Part shown: one piece after another, positions 2,521 to 48,240 of the stretch
Numbering within the stretch: the first letter of the stretch is position 1
Layout of the letters: every line of letters begins with the position of its first letter
Assembly: GCA_947561715.1 (NCBI GenBank)
Contig: OX387203.1
Location: forward strand, 18,972,001 to 19,036,000
Length of the DNA stretch: 64,000 nucleotides
Direction: 5' to 3'
Source of the DNA: Ascidia mentula
Lineage: Eukaryota; Chordata; Ascidiacea; Phlebobranchia; Ascidiidae
Notes under the pieces: generated by a model
Told to the model about the DNA's origin: nothing
What the model saw: only the letters and a program-made list of their open reading frames with translations
The model's database searches: none
Position numbers and translations under genes: made by a program

Positions 2521-3496
2521 TACAAAAACTATTTTTACCACGACGGGATTCGAACCCAGGATATCCCGGCCACGATCAGACCTTCTTCTTGGTATGGAGG
2601 AATGGCTAACTTGTCAGCGAAAGCAGTCGAGGTTCTGAATAATCGACTCACATGCGACGTGAATATTTTGAAGGTGGGAAGTTTCCTGTATATTTTTGCA
2701 GAACCATATTTGCTGCTTGAGGTGGATTTGGGCAGAAAACCTACGTGGGGTTTTGCGGCGTTGCATTTAAGGTAGTTTGCGTAGTTGCATTGGATTACCG
2801 AAGAATTAAAGTGCGCATTTCACAAACAAAAGCTTTTACGTCGGTACGTGCGCCAGGTACTGAATTTATAAGAAAGTAAATCAGAATAACATTAAATACG
2901 TGCCTGTTGTAAGTGGGTACACTTTTCGTGCGACATAATAGTCAATTCCGTAACAGAAACTAGTAATAAAGGCACATAATGTTGCTTCTTTGTATTGTCG
3001 AATAATACCACATGTGTGGTAATAATGCCACGTGTTACGTAACAATGTGCCACGTGTTTGGTAACAATGCTCAATTTAAAAACAATGTGTTAAACTAGCG
3101 AACATGAAACTTTTAGTTTTCTCGGTAAATTATGCAAAAAGATTGACGATTACGTTTATTTAAAAAGTCAACGCAAACTGTGATGCGATTGGCGTATTCG
3201 CCACCCCAGATATAAACCTTTACTTATCTTAGATTAAGTTTTTGCGCCACCCACCGGCCACTTCTTACCTCAACAACATTATTGTTACGTGGAAGTGTTT
3301 CGCAATCAATAATTCCCTTAAAATATTATAAACGATTCTGAACGCGTGGGGTTTTGAAATTGTCTTATTTGACCCGACTTTATTATAAACTGTTCAATAT
3401 TGGTTATTTCAAGCAAAGTGAAACCCTGATAACATCGTCTATCGGTTGGTCAACACAAATACAACGAATGTAGGGAACATATTTAAGTGCTTTCAC

Positions 3497-6610: not shown

Positions 6611-7586
6611 TACAAAAACTATTTTTACCACGACGGGATTCGAACCCAGGATATCCCGGCCACGATCAGACCTTCTTCTTGGTATGGAGGAATGGCTAAC
6701 TTGTCAGCGAAAGCAGTCGAGGTTCTGAATAATCGACTCACATGCGACGTGAATATTTTGAAGGTGGGAAGTTTCCTGTATATTTTTGCAGAACCATATT
6801 TGCTGCTTGAGGTGGATTTGGGCAGAAAACCTACGTGGGGTTTTGCGGCGTTGCATTTAAGGTAGTTTGCGTAGTTGCATTGGATTACCGAAGAATTAAA
6901 GTGCGCATTTCACAAACAAAAGCTTTTACGTCGGTACGTGCGCCAGGTACTGAATTTATAAGAAAGTAAATCAGAATAACATTAAATACGTGCCTGTTGT
7001 AAGTGGGTACACTTTTCGTGCGACATAATAGTCAATTCCGTAACAGAAACTAGTAATAAAGGCACATAATGTTGCTTCTTTGTATTGTCGAATAATACCA
7101 CATGTGTGGTAATAATGCCACGTGTTACGTAACAATGTGCCACGTGTTTGGTAACAATGCTCAATTTAAAAACAATGTGTTAAACTAGCGAACATGAAAC
7201 TTTTAGTTTTCTCGGTAAATTATGCAAAAAGATTGACGATTACGTTTATTCAAAAAGTCAACGCAAACTGTGATGCGATTGGCGTATTCGCCACCCCAGA
7301 TATAAACCTTTACTTATCTTAGATTAAGTTTTTGCGCCACCCACCGGCCACTTCTTACCTCAACAACATTATTGTTACGTGGAAGTGTTTCGCAATCAAT
7401 AATTCCCTTAAAATATTATAAACGATTCTGAACGCGTGGGGTTTTGAAATTGTCTTATTTGACCCGACTTTATTATAAACTGTTCAATATTGGTTATTTC
7501 AAGCAAAGTGAAACCCTGATAACATCGTCTATCGGTTGGTCAACACAAATACAACGAATGTAGGGAACATATTTAAGTGCTTTCAC

Positions 7587-21737: not shown

Positions 21738-21743
21738 TTTATT
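21738..21743 (-). terminator. Polyadenylation signal overlapping the receptor stop codon
   Basis: The minus strand reads CTG TAA ATAAACC: the hexamer AATAAA begins within the stop codon. If used, the 3' untranslated region would be only about 20-30 bases. No alternative was checked in detail. Confidence 0.4.
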
Positions 21744-23723
21744 TACAGAGCAGTTTCTGCTTCAACCACATGTAAGTTTTGTCGGTTAGCAACCACAAAC
21801 ACATTTTCCTGTTGCTCTTCCTGTGGTTGAGGCCTGAAAACGGCACGTAGGACATCCCGGACTCTATCATACAGGAGTTTCGGTGCGTTGGAGTAGATGA
21901 GGGGATTTAGAGAGCTGTTGATGGGGAGTAGGATGATTGCTGACACAGCGTACATCACTGGAGGCATGGGGACTCCACCAAAGTTTACAAATGCCATGAT
22001 TGAAATTGGAACCCAGCAGAGAAAATCGGTAATTATCAGTCGGAGGATTTTCTTTTGCATTTCTGCCGAAACAAACAGCATTTCTGGAATAATATGTTTG
22101 CAAATACGAATGCGATTACCTTTGTTTTGTCTTGCCACCCTGCCATCTCTTGATCTCTCGTTCAATTTCCTGGCACTGGCAGTTGTCTTCTTGTAAATCC
22201 ACAAATACGTAATTGCCACGAACATGAAGGCCAGGAAATTAAGAGTAATAATAGCGATTGAAAATCCCCATGCCTTGTCGTTGGTTGTTACATAAAGTTT
22301 GCTGATGCAAACGCTGCTGCTGCTGTAATATCTACACACAGATAATTTTGGGGCGATAAAATTGAACATTTTGCGATTATAAAAACGTACCCCAAATATC
22401 CAGAAATATCAAATAACTCAGTGTAATTGTAATCCTCAAGAATATCCATAAAATCCATCCAGGAATTAGCATCATTCACTCGCATGATGGCAGTGTTGAG
22501 TTCTTGGGAATCGTTGCTTGTAAAGTTGTGTTGGAAAGTTACAAATCGATCCATGAAGTTATTCATGCCTGTATACGCAGCGCTAGTGTCATTCGAAACT
22601 GGTTTCACCACCAAAAAAACGACAAAATATCTTACTAGAGAAGTCGACTGCAACATTTTCAAAAAACGGATTCTCATTCATCAAAGCTTTGGTTTCGAAC
22701 AAATGTTGAAGTTGAGTCGTGAGTGGAATAAAAGCAATTGTAAACGAGAATGCCCAGGAGAGGATAATGGAAAGGATGACTGTTTTCAATTCCGGTTTCA
22801 AGGATGCATCGAGTGGCTGAAACAAAAGAGAACATAGACGTGTTTTCATTAAAAGTAATAAGTTTGCAAGCTAGGGGTTCGTTTCAAATCGTGGGATGTT
22901 GAACATAGTTGTCAGTTCGAATCCCATCGGACTGGAAATTGCTCCTTCTTTCTCTACCCTGTAGTTCCCAAATTGGGCAAAACTGCGTCATTTTAACAAC
23001 ATTCGTTTTAGTTTCGTTTCTCATGTCAGGCTCAGATTCTAGCGATATCTGTGAGTGTGAAAATAAATAGGTTTCTGGAGATAAAAGATTTCCAGAGAGA
23101 AAGTTTTCGTAAAATTTTGAAAAGGGTCGTCACCGGTTCAACGAAGTTGGCAATAGCTGACTTACCAAAATAAAATTGTTTCACTTACGTTTTTCACAGC
23201 ATAAAGTCGGAATATGGTCAACAGAACCATTGTAAACACCGATGTTTCGCTTGAAAGCAAAACCAATACCCCCATTGTGGTGCAACTTCCGCTTGATCTC
23301 CATATAAGGTCATTGGCACAATAATTTCCAGAGTATCTGACACCAGCGGCGCCCAGCATGATCAGATAAACTCCCATGAGTAGATCGGAAACGGATAGAT
23401 TCAAAACAAGCAGATGGTTTGTGCGAAATGCAGCAGATTGTGATTCTGTCGTCGCCAACGTTTTACCTTCCATCACCATGACAACCAAAACAAATTAAAG
23501 GAATATAACACGTGTTCTTATTGTGCAACCAAGACTAAACAAACTTTGTTTATTTTACCAAATTTCCGGCAATGGCGAGCATCCCCATTATCCACACAAT
23601 GGCTCGTAGAAATGGGTTTGCAATCAACTCGTATCGTGATGAAAATATGTTTTCGTCAATCACTTTTGTATTTGTTGGACATTCGTCTGACCAATCAGAG
23701 CAGTCGCCGACTCCATTGAATTT
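21743..23723 (-). CDS. Seven-transmembrane part of the receptor
   Basis: Five exons. 23723-23559: end of the last LDLa module, linker and helix 1 (FLRAIVWIMGMLAIAGNL). 23485-23189: helices 2 and 3, with IFRLY in place of the usual D/E-R-Y. 22816-22636: helix 4 (VILSIILSWAFSFTIAF). 22598-22391: a long second extracellular loop with N-glycosylation-type sites (NDTS, NFTS, NYTE). 22330-21743: loop end YYSSSSVC, helices 5, 6 and 7 (NPLIYS), and a cytoplasmic tail with QPQEEQQENVF. The loop intron between 22636 and 22598 is only 37 bp. The tail is short, ending VEAETAL. Confidence 0.85.
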
Positions 23724-32700: not shown

Positions 32701-35537
32701 TCGTTCGCAGCGGCAAAAGTGCGACTTTGATCAGCTCTATCTCAGAAACCAGTCGCAGTATCAAGCTACTTTTTTCGCCAAAAATGTTCTCAAGTTATGA
32801 ACATCTCTTTTTTTGAATATTAGCATGTTACATTTGTACGTGTCATATGCACTTTAAGATGACCAGAGATTGGTGATAATACAAGCATCAGTACTCGTTC
32901 ATTAGATTAAGACCTCAGAGGCGGGCGCAGCTTCGCTCATCCAAACGACAGAAGCCCGACTCGTATGCCATCCTGGGTTCAAATCCCGGTGAGATATCGC
33001 CACAACTCCAGTGGTTCCTACTGAAGCACCCACGCAACCAGTTGCCACATCCACCCCAAAACCAACCATGCGGACAACGGCATTACCGAAATGCGGTCTC
33101 GCAAATGGAAGAAAACATCGTACTGCCACACTACATACGCAACATCAGGCAAGCATTTTAAATGTTTATGTGGCAAAGTACATTCAAAATACCGCTGTGA
33201 CGACTGGGCTCCGGATGAAGCCCATCCCGTTGTTACAACACAAACTACCAGTGTTTATTGATTAGTTGTACATGTGGCACATGTTATATTCTAATGCCCG
33301 ATAAGAAGGTTGTGTGTAATATGGCCATAATTACAAAGCAATAATACTAAATGAATTCAATACAACCTGTTTTTAATCAGCCAATATCTTGTACTTTTTT
33401 TATAATCTTTGACAATGTCGCCTACTTCGTACACACGTGTGTGCATTTAGGACTTCCGGTCCAATCCTCTTAAACTCGGTGCCTCTACAGGGATTGGTTG
33501 TTACGACGGGGTCAACATCCCCCTCTTTTCTGACCTCACACTCTCCTTCAAAACAATATTACAAACACCTCCTACTGAAAACACATTCTTGAACTCACTT
33601 CTGCACACACACTTGAAATCTTTAAACACCTATTTCACAACTGCCCATCCATCCATATCTTATAAACCCTGGTAAAAAACACCCTCAACGCACTTCTTCT
33701 TAACTTTCCCAAAACTCCTACAACCTAACACACCCCACGCCACAGCCCTTCTGAACAACTCTATGTTGCCATACCATTAGGAAACCCGTAACTGAATCCG
33801 CAATGACCCCCGCCCATTGAACAAGATCCCCAACACCTAATCCAGTCCCTTAAACCGTCCATCAACTTAAGCTCGTAATCCAGCGGAACAGGAACAACAC
33901 CTTTCCTGAAGGCGTCCTGGGCGATGTCAAACATTCTATACATTACAATTAATTAACCTTCTCTCCACCCCATTCTTAAAATCGCAAAACTTAATCCTGT
34001 ACCATTACCTGTTTTTTTTTGTTCTTCACGTTTAAAATAACTTCCTTATTCTGGCGTCTTTTTTCCATTCTCTTTAATCTTCTCCCATATTTTTCTTTCC
34101 ATTTAATATTATGTAACATGGGTTTAATTCATATTATTGGCTCCACTTAGCTTTGCATGCAAGATAAGCCAATCCTGACAAAATTATCAACAAAAAACGT
34201 TTTACAAATTTGCCATCAATCCAAGCAACCATTTTAAGTTTCTGGTTTTACTCCCACCATTAAAAACTGTATTTTTATCACGACGGGATGCGAACCCAGG
34301 AGGGCCACGATCAGACTTTCTTCTTGGTATGGAGAGGTGGCCAACTTGTCAGCGAAAGCAATCGAGCTTTTGAATAATCGACTCACATGCGACGGGAATA
34401 TGCAAAAGGTGGTCGAATTTTGGGGAAGATTCCTGTATATTTTCGCAGAACCATGTTTGCTGCTTGAGTTCGAGTTGGGCAGAAAATCTACATGGGTTTC
34501 TGCGACGTCGCATTTAAGTTAGTTTGCGTAGTTGTGCAAAAAAAGCCATAATAATATTGGTAAGCTGCAGACAGGGTGTGTACACGCACTGTTTCGACCT
34601 GTGAGGTCTCATCAGTGCAGCTGTTGCAGTGGCACTGTGCTAGCTTTTACACTAGCAGGCACACTAGATTCCACTTTGTGGTACCTGTCCGGTCAACGTT
34701 GCTCTTTGTATTTCCGAATAATATCATATGTGTGGTAATAATGCCACGTGTTACGTAACAATGTGCTACGTGTTTGGTAACGATGTTCAATTTAAAAACA
34801 ATGTGTTAATCTGGCGAACATGAAACTTTCAGTTTTCTCGGTAAATTATGCAAAAAGATTGACGATTACGTTTATTTAAAATTTTGTAAAGTCAACGCAA
34901 ACTGTGATGCGATCGACGTGTTGGCCACCCCTGATATAAACCTTTACTTATCTTAGATTAACTCTTTGCGCCACCCACTGGTCACTTCTTTCCTGAACAA
35001 CATTGTTGTTACGTGAAAGTTTTTCGCAATCAATAATTTCATTAAAATATTAAAAACGATTCTGAACGCGTGGGTATTGAAATTGTCTTATTTGACCCAA
35101 CTTTATTACAAAATGTTCAAAATTGTTTATTTCAATTAAAGTCAAACCCTGATAACATCATCTATTGGTTGGTCAACACTAATACAACGAATGTAAGGAA
35201 CATATTTAAGTGCTTTCACCTTATGTAAGGACTGGTGAGGTTTTCAGGATAAGTGGGAAAGTTGGCCGGTTTCTCATCACTTCCGTCCCTGCAATCGGAA
35301 ATATCATCACAAAACCACTCAGCCACCACCTTCTCCAAATCATTGCAAGTGAACTCTGCAAAAAACACATGAACGTAAATCGATTTGAAATCCATCAACA
35401 TCTGTAAAACTAACCAATATGTTAAATTAATTGAGAGTTGATGATTTGTAACAAAATACTTACTTTCGTCCCGTTTATACCGTGCTGAAGCAATTGTGAT
35501 GAAGGAGAGCAGGATTCCAACCACCTTCAACCAATAC
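21743..35537 (-). CDS. LDLa-module rhodopsin-type GPCR (GRL101/relaxin-receptor-like), 14 exons placed
   Basis: Exons by coordinates, minus strand: 35537-35464 (signal-peptide core WLKVVGILLSFITIASA), 35355-35220 (LDLa), 31113-30793, 30524-30342, 30284-29910, 29733-29563, 28055-27983, 25038-24754, 24535-24404, 23723-23559, 23485-23189, 22816-22636, 22598-22391 and 22330-21743. All junction phases agree, and all but one intron have GT-AG ends. The product has about nine extracellular LDLa modules (for example VCDGFIDCKDESDE, INCDDQSDEINC, GDCSDWSDEC), then seven helices. Motifs such as NLSVSDLLMGVYLI, LSSETSVF and the helix-7 NPLIY are typical of LDLa-bearing leucine-rich-repeat or GRL101-type receptors; no leucine-rich repeats are seen here. 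It acts at the cell surface; the ligand is unknown. The start codon is not found in the first exon placed, so an upstream exon, or a start supplied by trans-splicing, is needed. Further exons in the 31.1-35.2 kb intron cannot be excluded. Confidence 0.85.
25346..26319. mobile_element. Non-autonomous DNA transposon with GGGGAGACCGGGGA ends
   Basis: Flanked by TA at 25,344-25,345 and 26,320-26,321. Left end ggggagaccggggatacctc; the right end read inverted is ggggagaccggggaatgctc. Variants of the terminal motif (ggggatac-tcggaca) recur at about 25,370, 25,708, 26,085 and 26,115. It lies in a receptor intron. A short plus-strand open stretch from MAKNREKATIFEFYEKLSVI (about 25,722) is the only coding-like part. 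The TA target and ends suggest the Tc1/mariner-pogo group, but no transposase is recognised. Confidence 0.75.
26433..26801 (+). repeat. Imperfect tandem duplication
   Basis: The stretch ttaatttcatgaaaaaccgt...gagagactttag (26,433-26,551) recurs at 26,573-26,801, with about 100 extra bases in the middle of the second copy. Shared blocks include actgagtatatgcacgtttt and ttagcctgttcattaaag. No gene. Confidence 0.65.
26802..27980. other. Receptor intron, no feature recognised
   Basis: AT-rich intronic sequence between the exons at 25,038 and 28,055. Plus-strand ORFs here (26,798-27,040, 27,146-27,418 and 27,728-27,910) lack any recognisable motif. Confidence 0.45.
28588..29358. mobile_element. 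Non-autonomous DNA transposon with AAGGCCCGTTTACAC ends
   Basis: Inverted ends aaggcccgtttacac (left) and the same read from the right end, flanked by TA (28,586-28,587 and 29,359-29,360). It lies in the receptor intron between the exons at 28,055 and 29,563. The subterminal parts are rich in tgtgctg/tgtgcc words on both ends. No transposase coding is seen. Family uncertain. Confidence 0.65.
29057..29135 (+). repeat. Three-copy 25-bp tandem repeat
   Basis: tgccttaagtatgtaacaca followed by gcaca is repeated three times with a period of 25, inside the transposon at 28,588-29,358. Confidence 0.7.
29563..31113 (-). CDS. Duplicated two-exon LDLa cassette of the receptor
   Basis: Exon pair A'/B' (31113-30793 and 30524-30342) and pair A/B (30284-29910 and 29733-29563) are duplicates. 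A and A' share a nearly identical stretch from HFQ...RSTVCD through NDCPAFQHWNNGHGFKCVRN to DDKSDLCYTSENG. B and B' share CFQC-ND-MIISRS-VCDD and a C-PD-SDEC end. The 5' parts of A and A' differ: A begins SKPRCNCFDNNGVCYN, A' begins CDNKFDFSNSNKVCAL. Every pair begins and ends in phase 2, so either pair could be included or skipped without a frame change. Confidence 0.85.
31114..33740. other. Large receptor intron with SINE remnant
   Basis: Between receptor exons at 31,113 and 35,220. At about 31,420 there is a piece (aggtctcatcagtgcagct) of a short interspersed repeat also found at 34,605 and 59,500. At 32,955-32,990 there is a tRNA-like B box (gggttcaaatcccgg), probably a SINE. A plus-strand Thr/Pro-rich frame (33,011-33,265) follows it but has no exon support. 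Confidence 0.45.
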
Positions 35538-36107
35538 CTGATAAAAACACAAAGAGTTTATATCTTGCAATGATATATTTCTCTAATTCAGGGGAATGAC
35601 GTCATCAATGATTTCAGTGGAACACCAAATTGTTGGAAGTACTGCGGCATTGTACTTAACCAGCAACAGGCTCGCGCAATTACATTCTTCTTTTTACAAA
35701 ACGAATCTTATTTTTTCACAACAATGGAACATTCAAACTGGTGATAGTGGATAATTATTTTCACAAAGTATATTTCATAAAATATATATTTTCTGCGGAG
35801 CACTGGTGTTGAAAATCACTGATTTAAGTTAACTGGTAACCTCCAAAATGGCTTTTTATATAAACTGTCGTTACTTCTTTCTTTTTTGTTTTTTTCTCAT
35901 CCGCTTGTTGCTCAAACGCTCAGAATAAATATTCAGTAGTTTTCGCCAAATCTTGACAGCTCACCGAACCATTCATATTTTTTATGAAACATAAATTAAA
36001 AGGATTTTATTGTCATTTTTGATAAAACAAAAGTTTATTCACCACACTGGTTTAACCATATGTCTAATATAAATACTTTAAACCACGTTTAGTTTACACA
36101 TAAAAAG
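33748..36107. repeat. Third, diverged copy of the 4,090-bp unit, without the transposon
   Basis: Homologous to 1-4197 at lower identity. It carries the receptor's signal-peptide and LDLa exons, shows the empty TA target (34,261-34,262) of the THAP transposon, and has private insertions: a short interspersed repeat at about 34,545-34,710 and a segment at about 35,621-35,825 beginning aacaccaaatt and ending ctggtgttg. It continues past 36,107 exactly as unit 2 does past 8287. Confidence 0.8.
34545..34710. repeat. Short interspersed repeat (aggtctcatcagtgcagctg)
   Basis: Absent from the matching place in the tandem units (about 2785). A close relative lies at 59,468-59,600 in the troponin I intron, sharing tgtttcgac-tg-aaggtctcat, tggcactgtgctagctt and ccactttgtggtacct; a fragment is at 31,420. 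No A/B boxes are obvious; type unknown. Confidence 0.55.
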
Positions 36108-36195
36108 GCTTGACAAATATTGTAAGCAACCGCTTATGACCAGATGTCAGATTGTGACCTGGCATAATTTTTGCGAGATATGAACGGACCAAAAT

Positions 36196-37293
36196 TTTAT
36201 CCAAATAATTAATGTTCGTAGTACCCATTGGATAACAGTTTCAAATATTTTCTCTTTAAATAACCATACAGTTCAAGTATATGACAGTCAGCCGGACAAG
36301 TATAAATCGGATGAAAAATTCGACATTTCTAAGTTGCTAAATTTATCTAATGCCAAATACATAAGTCTGGAAGTCCCAAATGTACAAAAGCAATTTGGTT
36401 CAGGCAACTGTGGGGTGTACGCCATTGCGTTTGCGGTCGCTTTATGTTATAATCACCATCCAGAACATCTAAATTTTAACGAGCCATTGCTGCGAACTGA
36501 TATAGAAAAAATGTTGCGCAATAAAGAATTTGAGTCTCTTTTTAAGATGAAGAAGCTTATCGTAAACAGAAAAAAGAACAGCGAGACGGTTGCGATTCAT
36601 TGTAATTGTAGACTTGCAGAAAATATGCAACAATATTTTATTGAATGTAGTAAGTGTAAGGAATGGTTTCATCCGGAATGTTTAGAGCGCCCCATACCGG
36701 ATGAAGCTAAAATCGAGGACGTGCCTTGGTTTTGCGGAAAATGTTAACGTATCTAGCGGGATATTGTAGTATAAGCTAAGTATAGGCTTGTCAATGTAAC
36801 AAATGTGTAACATATTTTTTAAGTATTTTTCAGGTTGGTCGCTGGGTTGTTTGTGGCCTATTTGGCTTAAACACCAAGTCATCTGTGTACCTCCTCGTGG
36901 TGCGACTGGAAGCAGCTTCGGCTGACCAAACACAGAGGCGATTTTTGAAAATATGGGGGTTATGGTTAATATTCTTCAAATTTGAGAGAGCGCGCGTTTT
37001 TTCTCGCGAAAAACTTTACTATTTTTAGATAGTACAGACACCAAAGAATATCTACCCTTAAGGATTCCAGCGGGAATCGATGTTCACTCATGGTTATGAC
37101 ATAGCAAACATATCATATTCATATTCGAAAATTAATGCTAATTTTTTTTGATTTTTCATTTGTTGGAAAGTTCAGCCTGTGATCTATCTTTGTGCGAAAA
37201 AAGTAAGTCGCTGGCTTTTAAGATGGCAGAGTTACACGCGGCCAAAATTTTGTTAACTGGCGATTTTTTTTTGTCAACTAACATCCCTCTGGT
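36196..37293 (+). mobile_element. 3' fragment of a DDE/Ulp1-PHD DNA transposon
   Basis: It interrupts the match between 36,108-36,195 and 8288-8345, which resumes at about 37,300, so it is an insertion into the duplicated block. It holds the Ulp1-PHD coding end (36,271-36,747). About 100 bp at its right end (37,180-37,293) is the inverted counterpart of the left end of the element at 42,322 (shared: ttgacaaaaaaaatcgccag and gacttacttttttcgc). It is thus the 3' part of the same family; its 5' part is missing. Confidence 0.65.
36271..36747 (+). CDS. Ulp1-like cysteine protease C-terminus fused to a PHD finger (transposon-borne)
   Basis: Reads VQVYDSQPDKYKSDEKF, then NVQKQFGSGNCGVYAIAFAV, then a PHD finger (HCNCRL...ECSKCKEWFHPECL...VPWFCGKC) and a stop. 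The YDS aspartate, the Q of QFGSGNC and the nucleophile C fit C48 (Ulp1/SENP) proteases; the catalytic histidine lies upstream of the fragment. The PHD finger keeps its C4-H-C3 ligands. C48-like proteases are known in several large DNA transposons (for example KDZ elements). The frame is open to the end, but the 5' part is missing, so this is a fragment of a longer protein. Confidence 0.65.
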   Translation, partial: VQVYDSQPDKYKSDEKFDISKLLNLSNAKYISLEVPNVQKQFGSGNCGVYAIAFAVALCYNHHPEHLNFNEPLLRTDIEKMLRNKEFESLFKMKKLIVNRKKNSETVAIHCNCRLAENMQQYFIECSKCKEWFHPECLERPIPDEAKIEDVPWFCGKC

Positions 37294-41665: not shown

Positions 41666-42431
41666 TTTTTGAACCTAATCAAAAATCATTATCGAGCAGT
41701 CATTGCTACAGAACTTATTAATGTAGAACAAATGTTGCCGTGCATTTCGTCATCGATGTTTTATGAACGAACAACTCCTGGGTGTCCATCAAGACATGAG
41801 TTGTTTTTCAGATGAATAATACGTTTCAAGTTTATTAATGTTTCAAAGCAGTGTTCTTGATGTAAACACTTAAAAAACTTGGACGTAAGGCATAGGAATG
41901 TTACTAAAGGGAGGCGTGATAGAAATTTGTACAGAACTTATTAATGTAGAGCAAATATTGCCGTACATTTTGCCATTTATGTTTTGTGATCGCACAACTC
42001 CTGGGTTTCCATCAAAAAACAGAAATCTGTGAAGCAAACTTTGGTAAAAACTGACATACAGTGATCTCTAAATTTTTCATGATATATTAACAGACGATCA
42101 TTTTTAAAATATTCAACAACAACTGCCGTCAAACCGCGGCAAAATGTCGAATCTGACAAAGAACAATTGCTTGAAATCCAGATGTCATAATTAGTCTTGT
42201 TTCATTCACGCTTGTACTGCAATACATACTGTAACCACGTACACTGCGCGGGAACAACCAAAGATCCCCGACATGAGGGTTTCGCACTTCACCAAAACTC
42301 CCACTTAGCAACATTAAAAGATTTACCAGATGTTGGTTGACAAAAAAAATCGCCAGTTGACAAAAGTTTGAACGCGCGTGACTCGACCGCTTTACGAGGT
42401 AACGACTTACTTTTTTCGCAACCGGCAGCGT

Positions 42432-42987
42432 GATTAAAAACCGAGGTAACGATGCGCATTTTTGCGTTTACGAAATAGTTGTTAGAAACCCCAACAAAGG
42501 AGAAGCGCCGTTGGCTGTCGCAACGTATGTGACAAACCGCCATAACATCGCATCTATTTAACAATTTTTAAAACTCTTCAAAATCGACGAAAATAAATAC
42601 ATCAGTGAAACGAACGTTAAACTTATAATGTGTGAAAGTTCAATAGCGCTTATTCGTTCAATTTTAGTCGAGTATATGGTTGAGGATTTCCACGCTTATA
42701 TAGAACGATGTTACGCGGTCGTATCGGGAGAAGCAAGTGACAGGCAGTTAAATCAGAAGCCGTTCCTACATTTATGTAATAGTCACATAATGAAAAACTT
42801 GAAACAATTATGCGGATTAGTCAAAAAGCGTCGCGCCGAATCGATGTTTATTGTTGGTTTGTTAGTAGCCGCAGAGGGTATGAAGGAAATTGAAGAAATT
42901 TTGTTCCACGTCGATTATTCGAAACTTGTTGAATGTTTGTACCCAGCTAAAGGTAAGAACTCTTTTTCGAGCATTGTTTATTGTTAA
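42432..42987 (+). pseudogene. Middle part of a DDE-like transposase (deleted copy)
   Basis: Reads FCVYEIVVRNPNKGEAPLAV, a stop after HNIASI, then MCESSIALIRSILVEYMVED, LHLCNSHIMKNLKQLCGLVK and FHVDYSKLVECLYPAK, with a GTAAGA donor-like site. The pattern of an acidic strand, an EIVVRNP-type strand and a C-x-S-H-I-M-K stretch resembles transposases of the MULE/KDZ type; exact family unknown. The N-terminal part with DATG is missing here but present at 44,241. Confidence 0.5.
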
Positions 42988-43022
42988 TGTGTATAAATTT
43001 AACTTCTTTCACTTTATTTGCA

Positions 43023-43800
43023 GCCATCAAGAGCGGAGAAGTACGGCCTTGGGATATCTGGGAAGCAAACAATGTGGCGGGTTCCCGTCAAAAGCAGCCA
43101 GAAACGGTTGCTGTGCATTTCGACAGAAGGGTAAAACCATGAGAGGTTCTTTTGATTTTGCAGCTTTAAGCATGCCTGGTGGTACCACCTGGCATGCAAT
43201 ACAGGAACTTTCTTCCGCTACCATCGTTGAAGACATCAAAGTTGTGGTCATAGGGTTTGGCACCAATGATGTTCTCGCAATGAAAGGTGACAACCCTATG
43301 AATGGTGGCATTAGCGGAATTGTTGGCCGCATGAAAGCTCTTGTCCGATTGGTACAGACTCTATACCCATTTGCCAAGGTATTAAGAAATACTATACATT
43401 ACTATGAGTTCGTTGGCTATCCAGGATTTTCCCGAATTAAAATGCGGGAACAAAGATGAACTCGAGTCCACTGTCGGTGAGTACGAATGTTTTTACCAAC
43501 AAAATTATTAAATTAACAACAATATTTTTAACTAGAAATTCATTGAACAAATGGAACTGGTGAAAACAAGACCAACATTTCTTGATGTTGTTCAGGAAAG
43601 GGCACATCAGTTAAAACATTACTCTATTATATATATAACTCGCTGTATGTTAGTATAATTTGTTGCCAAACTTGTATTTGCTAGGTTGACAAACCGTCAT
43701 ATGTACGGTAAGCCCCAGTACAGCGATCGGTTCCATAGTACGATTGGCTCCAGAGGCCTTCCCAAATATGGGGAGGGGGGTTGTACTGGATTCCAACCAA
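43023..43800 (+). CDS. SGNH-hydrolase-like ORF, multi-exon (transposon-associated)
   Basis: A plus-strand frame reads FDFAALSMPGGTTWHAIQEL, then VVVIGFGTNDVLAMKGDN with the G-x-N-D block, then MKALVRLVQTLYPFAK. After GT-AG-like breaks come DFPELKCGNKDELESTV, KFIEQMELVKTRPTFLDVV and finally YSDRFHSTIGSRGLPKYGEG with the D-x-x-H block. These are the late catalytic blocks of SGNH/GDSL esterase folds. The first block (G-D-S) is not clear; ALGYLGSKQ may be its place. Exon phases do not all agree, so the model is incomplete and may be broken. SGNH domains are known in ORF1 of CR1/L2 LINEs; the presence of introns here argues for another origin. Confidence 0.45.
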
Positions 43801-43899
43801 CAAGACCTGCGGTCGTCCACCAAACTGCACACCAGACCACAACGGAAAGTGACGGAAGCATCGGAGTCCGGATGGATGGTTGTAACAAGACTCGAGTAG

Positions 43900-44428
43900 C
43901 GAGGAGTTCCAGCTCAGCCCAACATCTGAGGACACCGAGATCATCAATTCAACACCTGAGGACACCGAGGAGACCACCTCCACGTTGAAGAAGTGTACGA
44001 AGAGGAAGAGGAAGAAGAGTCCTAACGCCAAGAAGACCGCGTCACCACCGATGAAGTTCACACGAGGGAATTCACGATCCAAAGCGCTTGCGATTATGCA
44101 CGATGAACAAAAGGTCGAAGGCGTTGCGGCAAAACGAAAGTTGGGCAGAACGTTGCAGTATGTCACTTCGACTCCCAGTATCATGCTGTGGTCGCAAGAG
44201 ACGTTTGAGATTTTCCACGAACGCACTAAACGTGATATAATGTACATAGACGCAACCGGCAACGTGATTAAAAACCGAGGTAACGATGCGCATTTTTGCG
44301 TTTACGAAATAGTTGTTAGAAACCCCAACAAAGGAGAAGCGCCGTTGGCTGTCGCAACGTATGTGACAAACCGCCATAACATCGCATATTTCGCAATTTT
44401 TGAAACTTTTTTTTGGACAAGTGATTAA
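43900..44428 (+). CDS. N-terminal and core part of a DDE-like transposase
   Basis: Reads from an acidic repeat (SEDTEIINSTPEDTEETTS) into a basic nuclear-signal-like stretch (KKCTKRKRKKSPNAKKTASP), then IMYIDATGNVIKNRGND and FCVYEIVVRNPNKGEAPLAV, ending soon after HNIAYF. The DATG aspartate is probably the first catalytic acidic residue. The frame ends where the deleted copy at 42,544 continues, so this copy is also interrupted. The family is inferred from the pattern; no match search was possible. Confidence 0.5.
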
Positions 44429-44534
44429 CCGGGCTAATTTAAATGTCACCCATACATTTACAATCAAAAATTTTTTTTTTGTAACGAATATATAACCAAA
44501 TTTTCCGAAAATACCTCTGTGGAGCGCTTTACTC

Positions 44535-45526
44535 TTGGGGGATGTAGGTCGTCACGGAAGTAGTGAACCGTACCGCGCGTATTCTAAATACGTACAAAAA
44601 GTCCAACAACGCGGAGTTGGACAAACGTTGCTTGCCGATAATCGCACGCAGGGAATCATGGAAAAGAGTCAACAGGAATTAAAGCGGACTCGGTTCAACG
44701 ACAGAAAGCTTAACGGCCTGCACGAGTTTGCGAAAATGTACGACGATAAACATAAAGCGCTTATAGTTGAGTTTATGGACAGTGGGTACCGTCGAAAACC
44801 CAAGCGCAAACGCGTTAGACAGGAAGCGGAGGTTGAGGAGAGATGGGGGAAGAAGGCAAAGGTTGTTGGGATAGACAAAAGTATAGGAAGATACTTTCAA
44901 ACTCCCAACAAATCTTTGCGGGCTCCCAGCAAACCATCAGAAAAAACAGGAAGTCACGCGTGTAGAATCGAGCTGGATCCAAATAGTTTGACATGGCGGT
45001 GCTGCGGGCGCAAAATGGAAGCGGCGAATTGTATGAATACTTCAGATTACGCGCAGGTTTAGGCAGGCAATGTTTGGCTTAGTGACAAACATATAGATGC
45101 GGCCCATTACGTATTACTTAATCAGTTCCAAGGGTTCGACGGCATGCAGAGCACGTTGGCGTACTCACGTGAAATCGATAGGGTACCGACGTACGAAATA
45201 ACCATATCATTCAAATATATGACATTCAGTCGACAAAGTATAAATCGAAAGAAAAATTCGCCATTTCTAAGTTGCTAAATTTAACAAATGCCAAATACAT
45301 CAATCTGGAATTCCCAAATGTGCAAAATCAATTTGGTTCTGGCAACTGTGGGGTGTACGTCATCGCGTTTGCGGTCGCATTAGGTTTTAATCACAATCCG
45401 GAACATCTCTCCTTTAAAGAGCCATCGCTGCGAACAAATATAGTAAAAATGTTGCGCAAAAAAGAATTTGAGCCTCTTCATAAGATGACGAAGGAAAAAC
45501 AGCGAGACGGTTGTGATTTACTGTAA
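44535..45526 (+). CDS. Linker and Ulp1-like protease part of the transposon protein
   Basis: 44,535-45,062 gives a basic, coiled region (FNDRKLNGLHEFAKMYDDKH, YRRKPKRKRVRQEAEVEERW). After a break, 45,070-45,200 reads NVWLSDKHIDAAHYVLLNQF, a stretch typical of Ulp1-like domains in transposons (L-x-D-x-H-I). 45,272-45,526 then gives NVQNQFGSGNCGVYVIAFAV with the C48 glutamine and cysteine. The PHD region that follows in the copy at 36,590 is here only a decayed CNCRLAENKQQY. Several frame breaks; not functional as read. Confidence 0.5.
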
Positions 45527-45584
45527 TTGTAGGCTTGCAGAAAATAAACAACAATATTTAATTGAGGGTAGTAAGTGTGGAAAA

Positions 45585-46320
45585 TAAAAAACTAAAGGAC
45601 ATACGCCAATTTGGTTTTTACTGCTCGATTTGTACTGGCATCTAGTATTTGTGTGCAAAATTTCAAGTCGATTGACATAAAAATGTTCAAATCACAGACG
45701 GACAACTCTCAAATTTACTTAATTCCGCCCAACCTTAGCCATCATAGTTTCAAACATGCGTTTTCGTTCGCGAAGAAAAAATTAAAGGACATACGGCAAT
45801 TTGGTTTTCACTGCTCGTTCTGTACTGGCATCTAGTATTTATGTGCAAAATTTCAAGTCGCCTGATATAAAAATGTGCAAATCACAGGCGGACAACTCTT
45901 AAAATTATTTAGTTCCGCCCAACCTTAGCCACCATAGTTTCAAACATGCGTTTTCGTTCGCGAAGAAAAAATTAAAGGACATACGCCAATTTGGTTTTCA
46001 CTGCTCGTTCTGTACTGGCATCTAGTATTTATGTGCAAAATTTCAAGTCGCCTGATATAAAAATGTGCAAATCACAGGCGGACAACTCTTAAAATTATTT
46101 AGTTCCGCCCAACCTTAGCCACCATAGTTTCAAACATGCGTTTCAGTTCGCAAATAAAAAACTAGAAGACATAGGCCAATTTGGTTTTTACTGCTTGTTT
46201 TCAACTGCCATCTAGTATTTGTGTGGAAAATTTCAAGTCGCTTGATATAAAAATGTTCAAATCACAGGCGGACAACTCTCAAATTTACTTAATTCCGCCC
46301 AACCTTAGCCACCATAGTGT
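45585..46320 (+). repeat. 190-bp tandem array, about four copies
   Basis: Anchors such as aaaggacatacgccaatttg fall at 45,594, 45,784, 45,974 and 46,164 (fourth diverged), giving a period of 190. Copies 2 and 3 are nearly identical; 1 and 4 are more diverged, as expected if the centre was amplified last. ORFs starting MVFTA in the units are by-products. The array sits between the transposon protease end and the Gypsy remnant. Confidence 0.8.
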
Positions 46321-46339: not shown

Positions 46340-48005
46340 AAGGTTCGTCACCAGTTCAGAAACGAATGTTTATTTATGAGAAATATCCGATTAATAACGA
46401 TAGTCTCGATAACAATCATAACATCCGACGACAGTTTTTCAAGACCCAAAAACGCACAATAAGCTCGACACCAAGATTTTTGCGATTCTGGTTTTGACCA
46501 TGGAGGCTGCGTGTGCACTGTTGACTCCGAGATCGGTAACCACGTGACCATAGCTACCCGAAGGAATAACGCAATCACGACTGACATATACGCGTTGACA
46601 TGACAGCGCAGCGGTGTAAGAGGAAAATGGAACGAATGCGTCACCGGCTTGCAACACATCCTGCGAGTACAAAATATCACACCGAAATGCTGTTAGAAAA
46701 TCATGACCTAAGAGACAGGTTCTGTCCAGACTCCTTGTGACATAAAATTCAAAAACGTTCGACAGACCTCCGAGCTGAAACGACAGCGATGCAACGCCGT
46801 CAGTTGCAAGCAAGGTTTGTCCGTCCGCCTGAAACAAAACCGTTTGAGAGGCAGCCAGATGAGTTTTTCTCAACCCTAACGCTTGCCACATGCTGTAAGC
46901 AATTAGACTTACTGGGGATCCGGTATCAATAGTAAACACGACGGACCGAGATTCGACTGCGCCATTTACGTGTACTACCGAGCTCGCGCCACTGGAATGC
47001 TGTAGAGAGGACAGAGGCACTATTTTTCGTTGGGTTGGGGCAAACTCCTCCCGCGGTTTCCCAACCCATTCTCGTTTAAAGGACATTCCCGACGAATGTG
47101 TCCAGGCTTACCGCAGCCGTAGCAGGTGAGACCATACGGTGGCCTGTATGTTGACCTTCGCCTGGGGTTTTCTTCCTGAAAGTTTAATTTGGCTAGGTCA
47201 CTCAGTTTTTCTGATATGTCCTTCATTGCCCCTTGCATTTGTTTATTTACGGCTTCAAGATTAGCTAGGCGGACATCGGTTGATACCCTGGGCTCATTTT
47301 CAGGACATCCGTGCAACGCATGGACCCTCTCTCCACTCGGTTTCAAACCAACTCCAACTTAACAAGTCATCTGGAGACAAATCCTTGTCAGTATTGAAAA
47401 TGTGGAACGCCAGATTTCTATCCAAAAGACCACGCAGAAAAGCACTGCGTACTGCCTGGTCTGTTATCTTTTTAAATTCAGTTTTGTTTCCATAAGCTAA
47501 GCGTGCTAAATCATTTAGCTCACCCAAGTATTCTTCGACAGACTCCGAACCCAACTGCTTTCTTTCCATTAACTTGTACATTGCAGCACCGCTATCCAAT
47601 TCCGGAGAAAACATGTTTCTCAGACAGCCCGTGAAGTAAATAAAGTCCCTCTTTTGTTCTTCGTCGAAACTCATTTTCTTGATTCTTGGACCAATTTCCG
47701 GCGAGCAAAAAGTTAGCATTGAAAAGGCCCGTTGATTCAAGGGGATATGTAGAATGTCAGCAAAGCTCTCAAAGCAAGTCAGCGATGCGGCAAAATCTTG
47801 TCTGTCGTCAAATTGTGGTGGTGAATTCACCCATTTGGAAGGCATTCCTGTTCCTACCGGAAAATCCAGGCCTTCACCATATATCCCCTCATACCTTCTT
47901 AGCCAAGCCTTTGCCTCGTCGGTTTTCCATTTTCCGCCGATTTGCTTTTCCACCCGTGTTGGATGAGGTGTCTGGTACAGATTTTCTGTATCTTTCAGAC
48001 TAGTT
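46340..48005 (-). mobile_element. Ty3/Gypsy-type LTR retrotransposon remnant (gag-protease), fossil
   Basis: Minus strand. From right to left: a capsid-like Gag region (about 48,000-47,300), a CCHC zinc knuckle (CYGCGKPGHIRREC, about 47,110) and a retropepsin-like domain (FTIDTGSPVSLIA, about 46,930). Reverse transcriptase, integrase and LTRs are not seen in the window, so it is a broken partial copy. Reading is not continuous, with a small number of breaks. The well-preserved motifs suggest moderate rather than great age. Confidence 0.75.
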
Positions 48006-48240
48006 ACACTAGTTAAAAACAAAGAGCGTTAATCATAACTAACAGCACACAGACTTACATATGTTTTGTAAGCGACCAGAAGCAGATGATCCCAATGACA
48101 ACAACAGCAATAATAATGCCATCAAGTGCCAAAGAGGCTATGATCGTGATTGTAGGGTCGTGACTGTATTGGATTGCATCTGACGAACCTGTGAGAATTG
48201 TTGCTCAAGGCAAACAAAAGCATTTGCTCGGGAAAGTAAA
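48005..48240 (-). pseudogene. Copy of the transmembrane exon of 15,933-16,077
   Basis: Matches 15,886-16,130, including the exon ends (acatatgttttgta on one side, ttgct-aaggcaaacaaaa on the other). The frame now differs at several residues, and the rest of the gene (stalk exon) is not found next to it. It abuts the Gypsy remnant directly. Confidence 0.55.

Follow-up and report, generated by a model that had tools for sequence, protein, structure and literature searches.

A probable Mutator/IS256-like DNA transposon of Ascidia mentula with a recurrent SGNH esterase component

Results

Two broken transposon copies in the window

The window analysed here is a stretch of 64,000 nucleotides of the ascidian Ascidia mentula (contig OX387203.1, denoted as C71, C71:18972001-19036000), and it contains two broken copies of a DNA transposon bounded by terminal inverted repeats (TIRs): a sister fragment at 36193-37293 and a main copy at 42325-45578. 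Both copies are dead. An earlier note, made from the letters alone, had described pieces of a DDE-like transposase, a basic linker, a C48 (Ulp1-type) protease, a PHD finger and an SGNH-hydrolase-like open reading frame (ORF) here, and all of them were recovered at this place by translation, Pfam searches and similarity to an intact copy elsewhere in the genome, denoted as L016. The closest relatives of the window element are called family a, a sister group family b and a distant group family c. The features of the two window copies are as follows.

36193-37293, plus strand: sister fragment, the 3' end of a family-a element (C48, PHD, 3' flank, right TIR)
36196-36570, plus strand: C48 protease of the sister fragment (Pfam PF02902, E=1.8e-4, 21.9 bits against a cut-off of 20.7; 87% to the C48 of L016)
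36571-36744, plus strand: intact PHD finger of the sister fragment (Pfam PF00628, E=2.5e-7, 31.1 bits against 24; 91% to L016)
37293, plus strand: end of the right TIR of the sister fragment, last letters ...CCCTCTGGT, the tip being located by motif
42325-42420, plus strand: degenerate left TIR of the main copy (42329-42420 about 81-93% to the TIRs of other copies), its tip shortened relative to ACCAGAGGGATG...
42417-42909, plus strand: transposase middle segment, displaced to the front of the copy (by comparison with other copies)
42920-42952, plus strand: end of predicted exon 0, donor GTAAGAAC (in 10 of the 11 sequences searched; L022 is cut short)
43024-43378, plus strand: relic of SGNH exon 1, catalytic-serine stretch deleted, oxyanion Gly and Asn blocks kept
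43379-43476, plus strand: remnant around SGNH exon 2, Asp/His block lost, donor GTGAGTACG at its end
43536-43610, plus strand: predicted small exon 3, donor mutated in this copy
43685-44149, plus strand: predicted start of the transposase exon, a linker with a lysine/arginine-rich stretch
44150-44777, plus strand: transposase core with an internal deletion; the first D motif YIDATG and the TQGIME motif are left
44778-45196, plus strand: basic linker from transposase to C48
45197-45493, plus strand: broken C48 protease fragment (Pfam E=2.1e-3, below gathering; 80% to L016)
45492-45578, plus strand: first half of a PHD finger (83% to L016 over 28 residues)

The PHD finger that had been called intact in the sister fragment scored above its gathering threshold. 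In the main copy, the transposase pieces (42418-42960, 44150-44413 and 44379-44777) were 81-88% to the intact copy, and the open protein pieces in 42.3-45.6 kb other than C48 and SGNH had no Pfam match. The SGNH of this copy is a relic: the serine stretch and nearly all of exon 2 with its Asp/His block are gone, and the matching pieces are confined to 43024-43122 and 43148-43396 (Pfam GDSL_2, E=4.4e-4, below gathering). In other copies, the segment at 42417-42909 follows and overlaps the match to query positions 1761-2086 of the 3.2 kb, and its native site corresponds to the window deletion point 44407/44411. The SGNH does lie between transposase pieces in the window copy, as the earlier note had it, because this segment moved to the front; elsewhere the SGNH is upstream of the transposase, so the window order is a local rearrangement.

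The window copy was multiplied together with its flanks at C71:17.8-19.0 Mb. Considering that it has flanking DNA in common with L009-L012, these five are segmental duplicates and not separate jumps. Much of the stretch at 37.8-46.3 kb of the window and at C71:17.85-18.69 Mb is duplicated including flanks, in five places on one contig. A 190-bp tandem repeat (45586-46318) adjoins the main copy, and far longer arrays follow the related L009 and L011.

The full element and its genomic copies

When the 3.2-kb main copy was searched against the genome (195.8 Mb, 79 contigs), 144 matching DNA pieces were found, itself included, and the window element is therefore more than chance. Clustering of 93 of these pieces, those omitted being mainly short TIR matches and pieces in regions already covered, gave 37 loci, of which 18 had an SGNH region, 31 transposase and 19 C48; SGNH occurred with transposase in 12, with C48 in 8 and by itself in 6. 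These counts are lower bounds, as extra SGNH pieces lie beside some loci scored without SGNH, examples being one close to C71:18530107 and another, of 60% identity, immediately upstream of L015. Twenty family-a loci (L009-L028) were selected by their match to the window, which makes them a non-random sample, and mapping covered 21 loci with the window included. The canonical order was left TIR, SGNH exons, basic linker, transposase, C48, PHD and right TIR. None of the fetched copies was intact throughout; L016 holds an intact ORF of 1248 amino acids with C48 and PHD above the Pfam cut-off. The C48 of L013 also exceeded its cut-off.

The element extends beyond the end sequence ttgacaaaaaaaatcgccag proposed earlier, its full tip reading ACCAGAGGGATGTTAGTTGACAAA... 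Both tips were present in 10 of the 20 fetched loci. Target duplications, read by eye, measured 8 bp in five of these (L013, L018, L022, L025 and L026) and 9 bp in two (L023 and L027), and were missing from the remaining three (L016, L017 and L020). The TIR arms were 498-1709 bp long in eight of the nine loci measured, the ninth (L013) being split, and were up to 99.7% identical, which points to recent movement. Bounded copies with target duplications include three that carry SGNH: L022 (SGNH partial), L026 and L025, the last having SGNH and no transposase between good TIRs.

SGNH recurs in three families

The earlier note had asked whether the SGNH ORF recurs at the same place in other copies. 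It lay 5' of the transposase and on the same strand in all nine mapped family-a loci with both (the window, L009-L012, L014, L022, L026 and L028), which amount to five independent cases when the segmental duplicates are taken as one. Overall, SGNH was present in 10 of the 21 mapped family-a loci (six independent) and missing from 11. When SGNH exon 1 was searched against the genome, 121 matches were obtained, in roughly three identity classes of about 70-100% (family a), 53-68% (family b) and 30-37% (family c), and the SGNH identity of family a was 53% to family b and 31-32% to family c.

In family b, L029 has related tips at 1221 and 5712 with an 8-bp duplication (one mismatch), and SGNH, C48 and PHD lie between them, with no transposase core. 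In L030, a 99% copy of the family-c locus L036 is interrupted by a 4.2-kb SGNH-only element inserted in the family-c transposase (1508-5683 of L030, oriented minus). This element has TIRs of 1085 bp at 98.9% identity and an 8-bp duplication with one mismatch; its only clear gene piece is a two-exon SGNH, and L036 represents its empty site.

In family c, SGNH lies upstream of single transposase ORFs of 2323 amino acids (L036:179-7147, minus), 2383 amino acids (L037:1353-8501) and at least 2219 amino acids (L038:1343-7999), which is the same place in all three fetched distant-family copies with a full transposase ORF. Their domains are PHD (above the Pfam cut-off in two of the three), transposase, a C48-like domain recognized by eye from its residue pattern only (the His-Asp-Gln-Cys layout of Ulp1/C48 proteases), with no Pfam match, and UCH/USP (above the cut-off in all three). 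A fourth copy at C2:902500-920500 holds SGNH, PHD and part of the transposase, and L033 carries SGNH. Family-c SGNH matches with equal scores at several places suggest recent spread. By eye, no reverse transcriptase was noticed in the ORFs around the distant SGNH copies examined, no reverse transcriptase profile having been run. Esterase and PHD domains together are reportedly the subject of a paper on CR1-like elements.

SGNH keeps its catalytic residues and is under purifying selection

In all four spliced SGNH sequences, the S, G, N, D and H residues are unchanged, and the Ser, Gly, Asn and Asp/His blocks follow each other in the SGNH/GDSL layout, which the window copy does not keep. The four proteins all matched Pfam GDSL_2, the first above the cut-off, with a best E of 6.7e-14, and splicing of the L026 exons raised the score from 20.1 to 34.7 bits (cut-off 32.9). 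To describe selection, we used the ratio of nonsynonymous to synonymous change per site as plain proportions, with a Fisher test on rounded counts. For SGNH exon 1, the ratio was 0.31 in family a (L025-L026, p=0.011), 0.10 in family b (L029-L030, p=3.4e-7) and 0.27-0.28 in three family-c pairs (p=3.3e-4 to 4.2e-13), while reading these alignments in either of the remaining frames gave 0.80-3.87. Other usable SGNH pairs ranged from 0 to 0.40, with one family-b pair at 0.67. As such, each of the three families shows purifying selection on SGNH, and in the coding frame only. The family-a pair L016-L013 gave 0.14 for the transposase core, 0.24 for C48, 0.15 for PHD and 0.62 for the stretch preceding the core. 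In the family-c pair L036-L037, the core gave about 0.13-0.20, the protease part 0.19-0.48 with 0.66 in its last 19 codons, and the minisatellite part within the same open frame 2.4. Codons 420-500 of the L037 ORF, between the minisatellite and the PHD region, are strongly hydrophobic, as in a T-rich intron end or a transmembrane segment, and changed little between L036 and L037 (ratio 0.22, few changes).

Since selection has conserved it, SGNH seems to be a functional component of the element rather than something carried along by accident. The claim that one family combines DDE-like transposase, C48, PHD and SGNH is supported, and SGNH recurs in three families. An accidental SGNH insertion into the window copy, which the earlier note would have recognized by SGNH standing alone elsewhere and being absent from other copies, is hardly credible. 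SGNH is indeed absent from 11 of the 21 mapped loci, and one SGNH-only element was found; yet the TIRs of that element are of the same type, an 8-bp duplication flanks it, its SGNH belongs to a domain under purifying selection, and the recurrence at the same place in the sister and distant families refutes an accident.

A host gene, or a LINE (long interspersed nuclear element) ORF1, captured as cargo in some families with no role in transposition is a broader alternative, which we consider unlikely. Several moved copies lack SGNH, a non-autonomous SGNH-only element exists, fish Helitrons bear the SGNH gene texim (according to excerpts of PMC4021074), and the solved structures nearest to the SGNH by profile were almost equally a platelet-activating factor (PAF) acetylhydrolase (E 7.4e-6) and the ZfL2 ORF1 esterase (4c1b, E 9.3e-6). 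However, place, strand and intron position are the same across copies, purifying selection acts in all three families, and SGNH has diverged about as much as its neighbors: between families a and b, SGNH is 53% and C48 50%; L036-L037 give 89% for SGNH and 92% for transposase, L037-L038 75% and 65%; and between families a and c, SGNH is 31-32% against about 28-31% for the transposase-protease part.

A predicted multi-exon gene

Splice sites were searched over 11 family-a sequences, five of them segmental duplicates. Exon 0, two SGNH exons, small exon 3 and a transposase exon are joined by GT..AG sites in phase 0. The exon-1 acceptor and the exon-2 donor were each found in 9 sequences, and the exon-1 donor in 10. 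Both splice regions of exon 3 were recovered in 10; in the window and in L012, the donor of this exon has become TT. The transposase exon start was found in 10, partial in L010 and L013. For the exon-2 acceptor, the short query matched 2 of 11, and the exon of L026 and L028 was taken from the ORF instead. The intron inside SGNH is at the same position in families a, b and c, and in family c a phase-1 donor and acceptor, read by eye, would link SGNH to the transposase frame. This arrangement suggests that SGNH is the N-terminal domain of a transposase polyprotein; considering the conserved phase-0 sites, a single polyprotein is the likeliest predicted product.

A LINE-like organization, in which SGNH and transposase are two separate proteins of one element (ORF1/ORF2) and are not fused, seems to us rather improbable, if the strongest of the competing accounts. 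It agrees with the stops that L036 and L037 have soon after the proposed donor of SGNH exon 2, with the weak constraint on the transposase exon start and with a fusion known by prediction. The phase-0 sites kept in family a at the end of SGNH exon 2 and at the transposase exon start, as well as the matching phase-1 sites of family c, speak for the polyprotein instead.

Transposase core and class assignment

Across the aligned stretch, the transposases show 24-28% identity between families a and c. Five aligned transposases have the motifs YxDATG (DSTG in L038), xxDxSMA, CxSH and TQGIxE in common, giving a D, D, CxxH, E layout. The sole Pfam match to the core was a chance-level zinc-binding hit (E=0.13). 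In a core model built from 11 sequences, of modest confidence (pLDDT 54, pTM 0.48), the strand-helix order was RNase H-like with two Asp at strand ends. When the model was compared with known structures by Foldseek, the top four rows were the ISCth4 transposase, with a best E of 1.1e-3, probability 1.00 and TM 0.31 to the query. We take ISCth4 to be an IS256-family transposase, and the IS256 family is the bacterial kin of Mutator. Mutator-like elements (MULEs) are known by an RNase H-like DDE transposase with a C2H motif. Furthermore, TIRs with target duplications in the 8-11 bp range of Mutator/IS256 elements were seen in 7 of the 10 two-tipped loci. The fold match, the 8-9 bp duplications and the TIRs together place the element beside MULEs.

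The earlier note had known C48 proteases from KDZ (Kyakuja/Dileera/Zisupton) elements. The 8-bp duplications also fit the Dileera-type element Zisupton-1_PGr, as given in excerpts of PMC12730594. The MULE-like D-D-C2H-E layout, the long TIRs and the IS256-family fold match nevertheless make a KDZ element very unlikely, and the element acts like a Mutator/IS256 (MULE) transposon rather than KDZ, a comparison that included no KDZ sequence.

Other features of the window

Two ORFs at 46439-48028 (minus) resemble the gag and aspartic protease of a long terminal repeat (LTR) retroelement (DTGSPVS, by eye). One short tandem repeat occurs twice, at 3004-3070 and 7094-7160, about 4.1 kb apart, which suggests a local duplication. 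By eye, an ORF at 21743-22408 (minus) resembles the end of a seven-helix receptor (NPLIYS), and one at 35216-35557 (minus) an LDL-receptor class A repeat.

Discussion

The element is most probably a Mutator/IS256-like cut-and-paste DNA transposon with long TIRs and a multi-exon gene in the order SGNH, basic linker, DDE transposase, C48 and PHD. The order of parts in several copies, the TIRs, the 8-9 bp duplications and the one empty site carry this reading, together with the recurrence of SGNH in three families, its intact catalytic residues, and purifying selection on SGNH, transposase core, C48 and PHD.

Several observations weigh against it. The best-preserved transposase ORF (L016) is without SGNH, and so are L018 and L027, which are two-tipped and duplication-flanked. 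Since these two moved without it, SGNH is not required in cis for every jump, and it either works in trans or can be spared in a single jump. None of the three family-b loci fetched (L029-L031) has a transposase core of its own, and no TIRs were found in the DNA fetched for the distant families. The transposase exon start is weakly constrained, with frame-0 ratios of 0.37-0.95 in six pairs excluding the frameshifted L009; frame 0 was the lowest in five of the six pairs and, with L009, in three of four. The fusion is a prediction. Finally, the transposase core has no useful Pfam or PDB sequence match, its model is of modest confidence, an earlier and longer model was useless (pLDDT 35), and Foldseek gave no match to the core model at E 0.001 or below.

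In the mechanism that we propose, in-frame splicing would join SGNH and the transposase in a single polyprotein, as the conserved phase-0 GT..AG sites suggest, and the DDE core would cut and rejoin DNA at the TIRs, consistent with the habits of the transposase family and with the empty site. The PHD finger may read histone tails and tether the transposase there, and C48, with the USP of distant families, may remove SUMO or ubiquitin, either on the transposase itself or on host proteins of repair or silencing. SGNH may anchor the protein to lipids or membranes, the role suggested for the ORF1 proteins of CR1/L2 elements; alternatively, it could remove acyl groups from lipid or protein, aiding its own localization or countering a host modification. 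According to PMC3905857, the ZfL2 ORF1p esterase has ester-hydrolysing activity and binds phospholipids of negative charge, with membrane targeting as the role that the authors favor; lipid or membrane contact, or acyl removal, is therefore the best guess for SGNH.

Compared by description only, the closest published group by features is Rehavkus. In the sections of PMC6446971 available to us, these Mutator-like elements have a single MULE-like transposase with PHD, long TIRs of 26-400 bp, a 3' minisatellite and 9-bp duplications, and are known only from arthropods and annelids. PHD with transposase, long TIRs and a minisatellite are common to both, whereas the duplications here are 8 bp in five of seven loci and 9 bp in two, the TIRs reach 1.7 kb, and neither C48 nor SGNH is mentioned in those sections. 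Excerpts of PMC2836005 describe hydra and lancelet MuDR/Mutator elements with a Ulp1 protease, as here, and mention no SGNH; a figure legend in the same excerpts announces a Ulp1 and PHD alignment of Ginger1 and Mutator transposases. The DNA transposon Ginger1-9_HM also has Ulp1 and PHD as C-terminal domains of its transposase, but that transposase is Gypsy-integrase-like and no SGNH is listed in those excerpts, where the authors proposed that such proteases participate in transposition. Of the combination that was unfamiliar to the earlier note in a DNA transposon, C48 with PHD is already known in animal Mutator elements, and it is the conserved SGNH component that would make the element a novel variant.

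SGNH enzymes occur in other mobile elements. The CR1/L2 ORF1 esterase (ZfL2-1, PDB 4c1b) is the likeness seen by profile, but it belongs to a retrotransposon ORF1, apart from the integrating enzyme. The texim genes of fish Helitrons place an SGNH on a DNA transposon as here, and are read in the excerpts of PMC4021074 as a part of transposition or a captured host gene; these elements differ in being rolling-circle and having no DDE transposase. Bdelloid LTR elements carry a GDSL ORF3 as an accessory ORF (PMC5408684, in part), an SGNH/GDSL accessory enzyme as here, but in retroelements. An SGNH in a DDE cut-and-paste transposon was not found in open-licence papers, covered partly through best matches only and by title and abstract start, with no Repbase entries, which is weak evidence of novelty.

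A more far-reaching view is tentative, and we do not favor it over its negation: the families could be a major clade of animal cut-and-paste transposons not described so far, with a polyprotein of SGNH, a SANT-like region (by eye), PHD, DDE, C48 and USP, or of SGNH, DDE, C48 and PHD, which would bring its own acyl-esterase and SUMO/ubiquitin proteases and use the esterase in transposition itself. If so, lipids, membranes or protein acylation would matter for a DNA transposon, as has been proposed for LINEs. Apart from this view, the C48 and USP proteases make these elements a clear example of transposons whose products may target SUMO and ubiquitin marks. In LINE ORF1, bdelloid LTR elements and Helitrons, a role of SGNH in mobility is unproven. 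A DDE cut-and-paste transposon has no RNA particle that would need packaging or transport across membranes, and the selection on SGNH in such an element speaks for a function shared by very different mobile elements, which may be the placing of the protein in the cell or the removal of acyl marks. As copies with 98-99% identical TIRs are present, the role of SGNH is open to test in this system.

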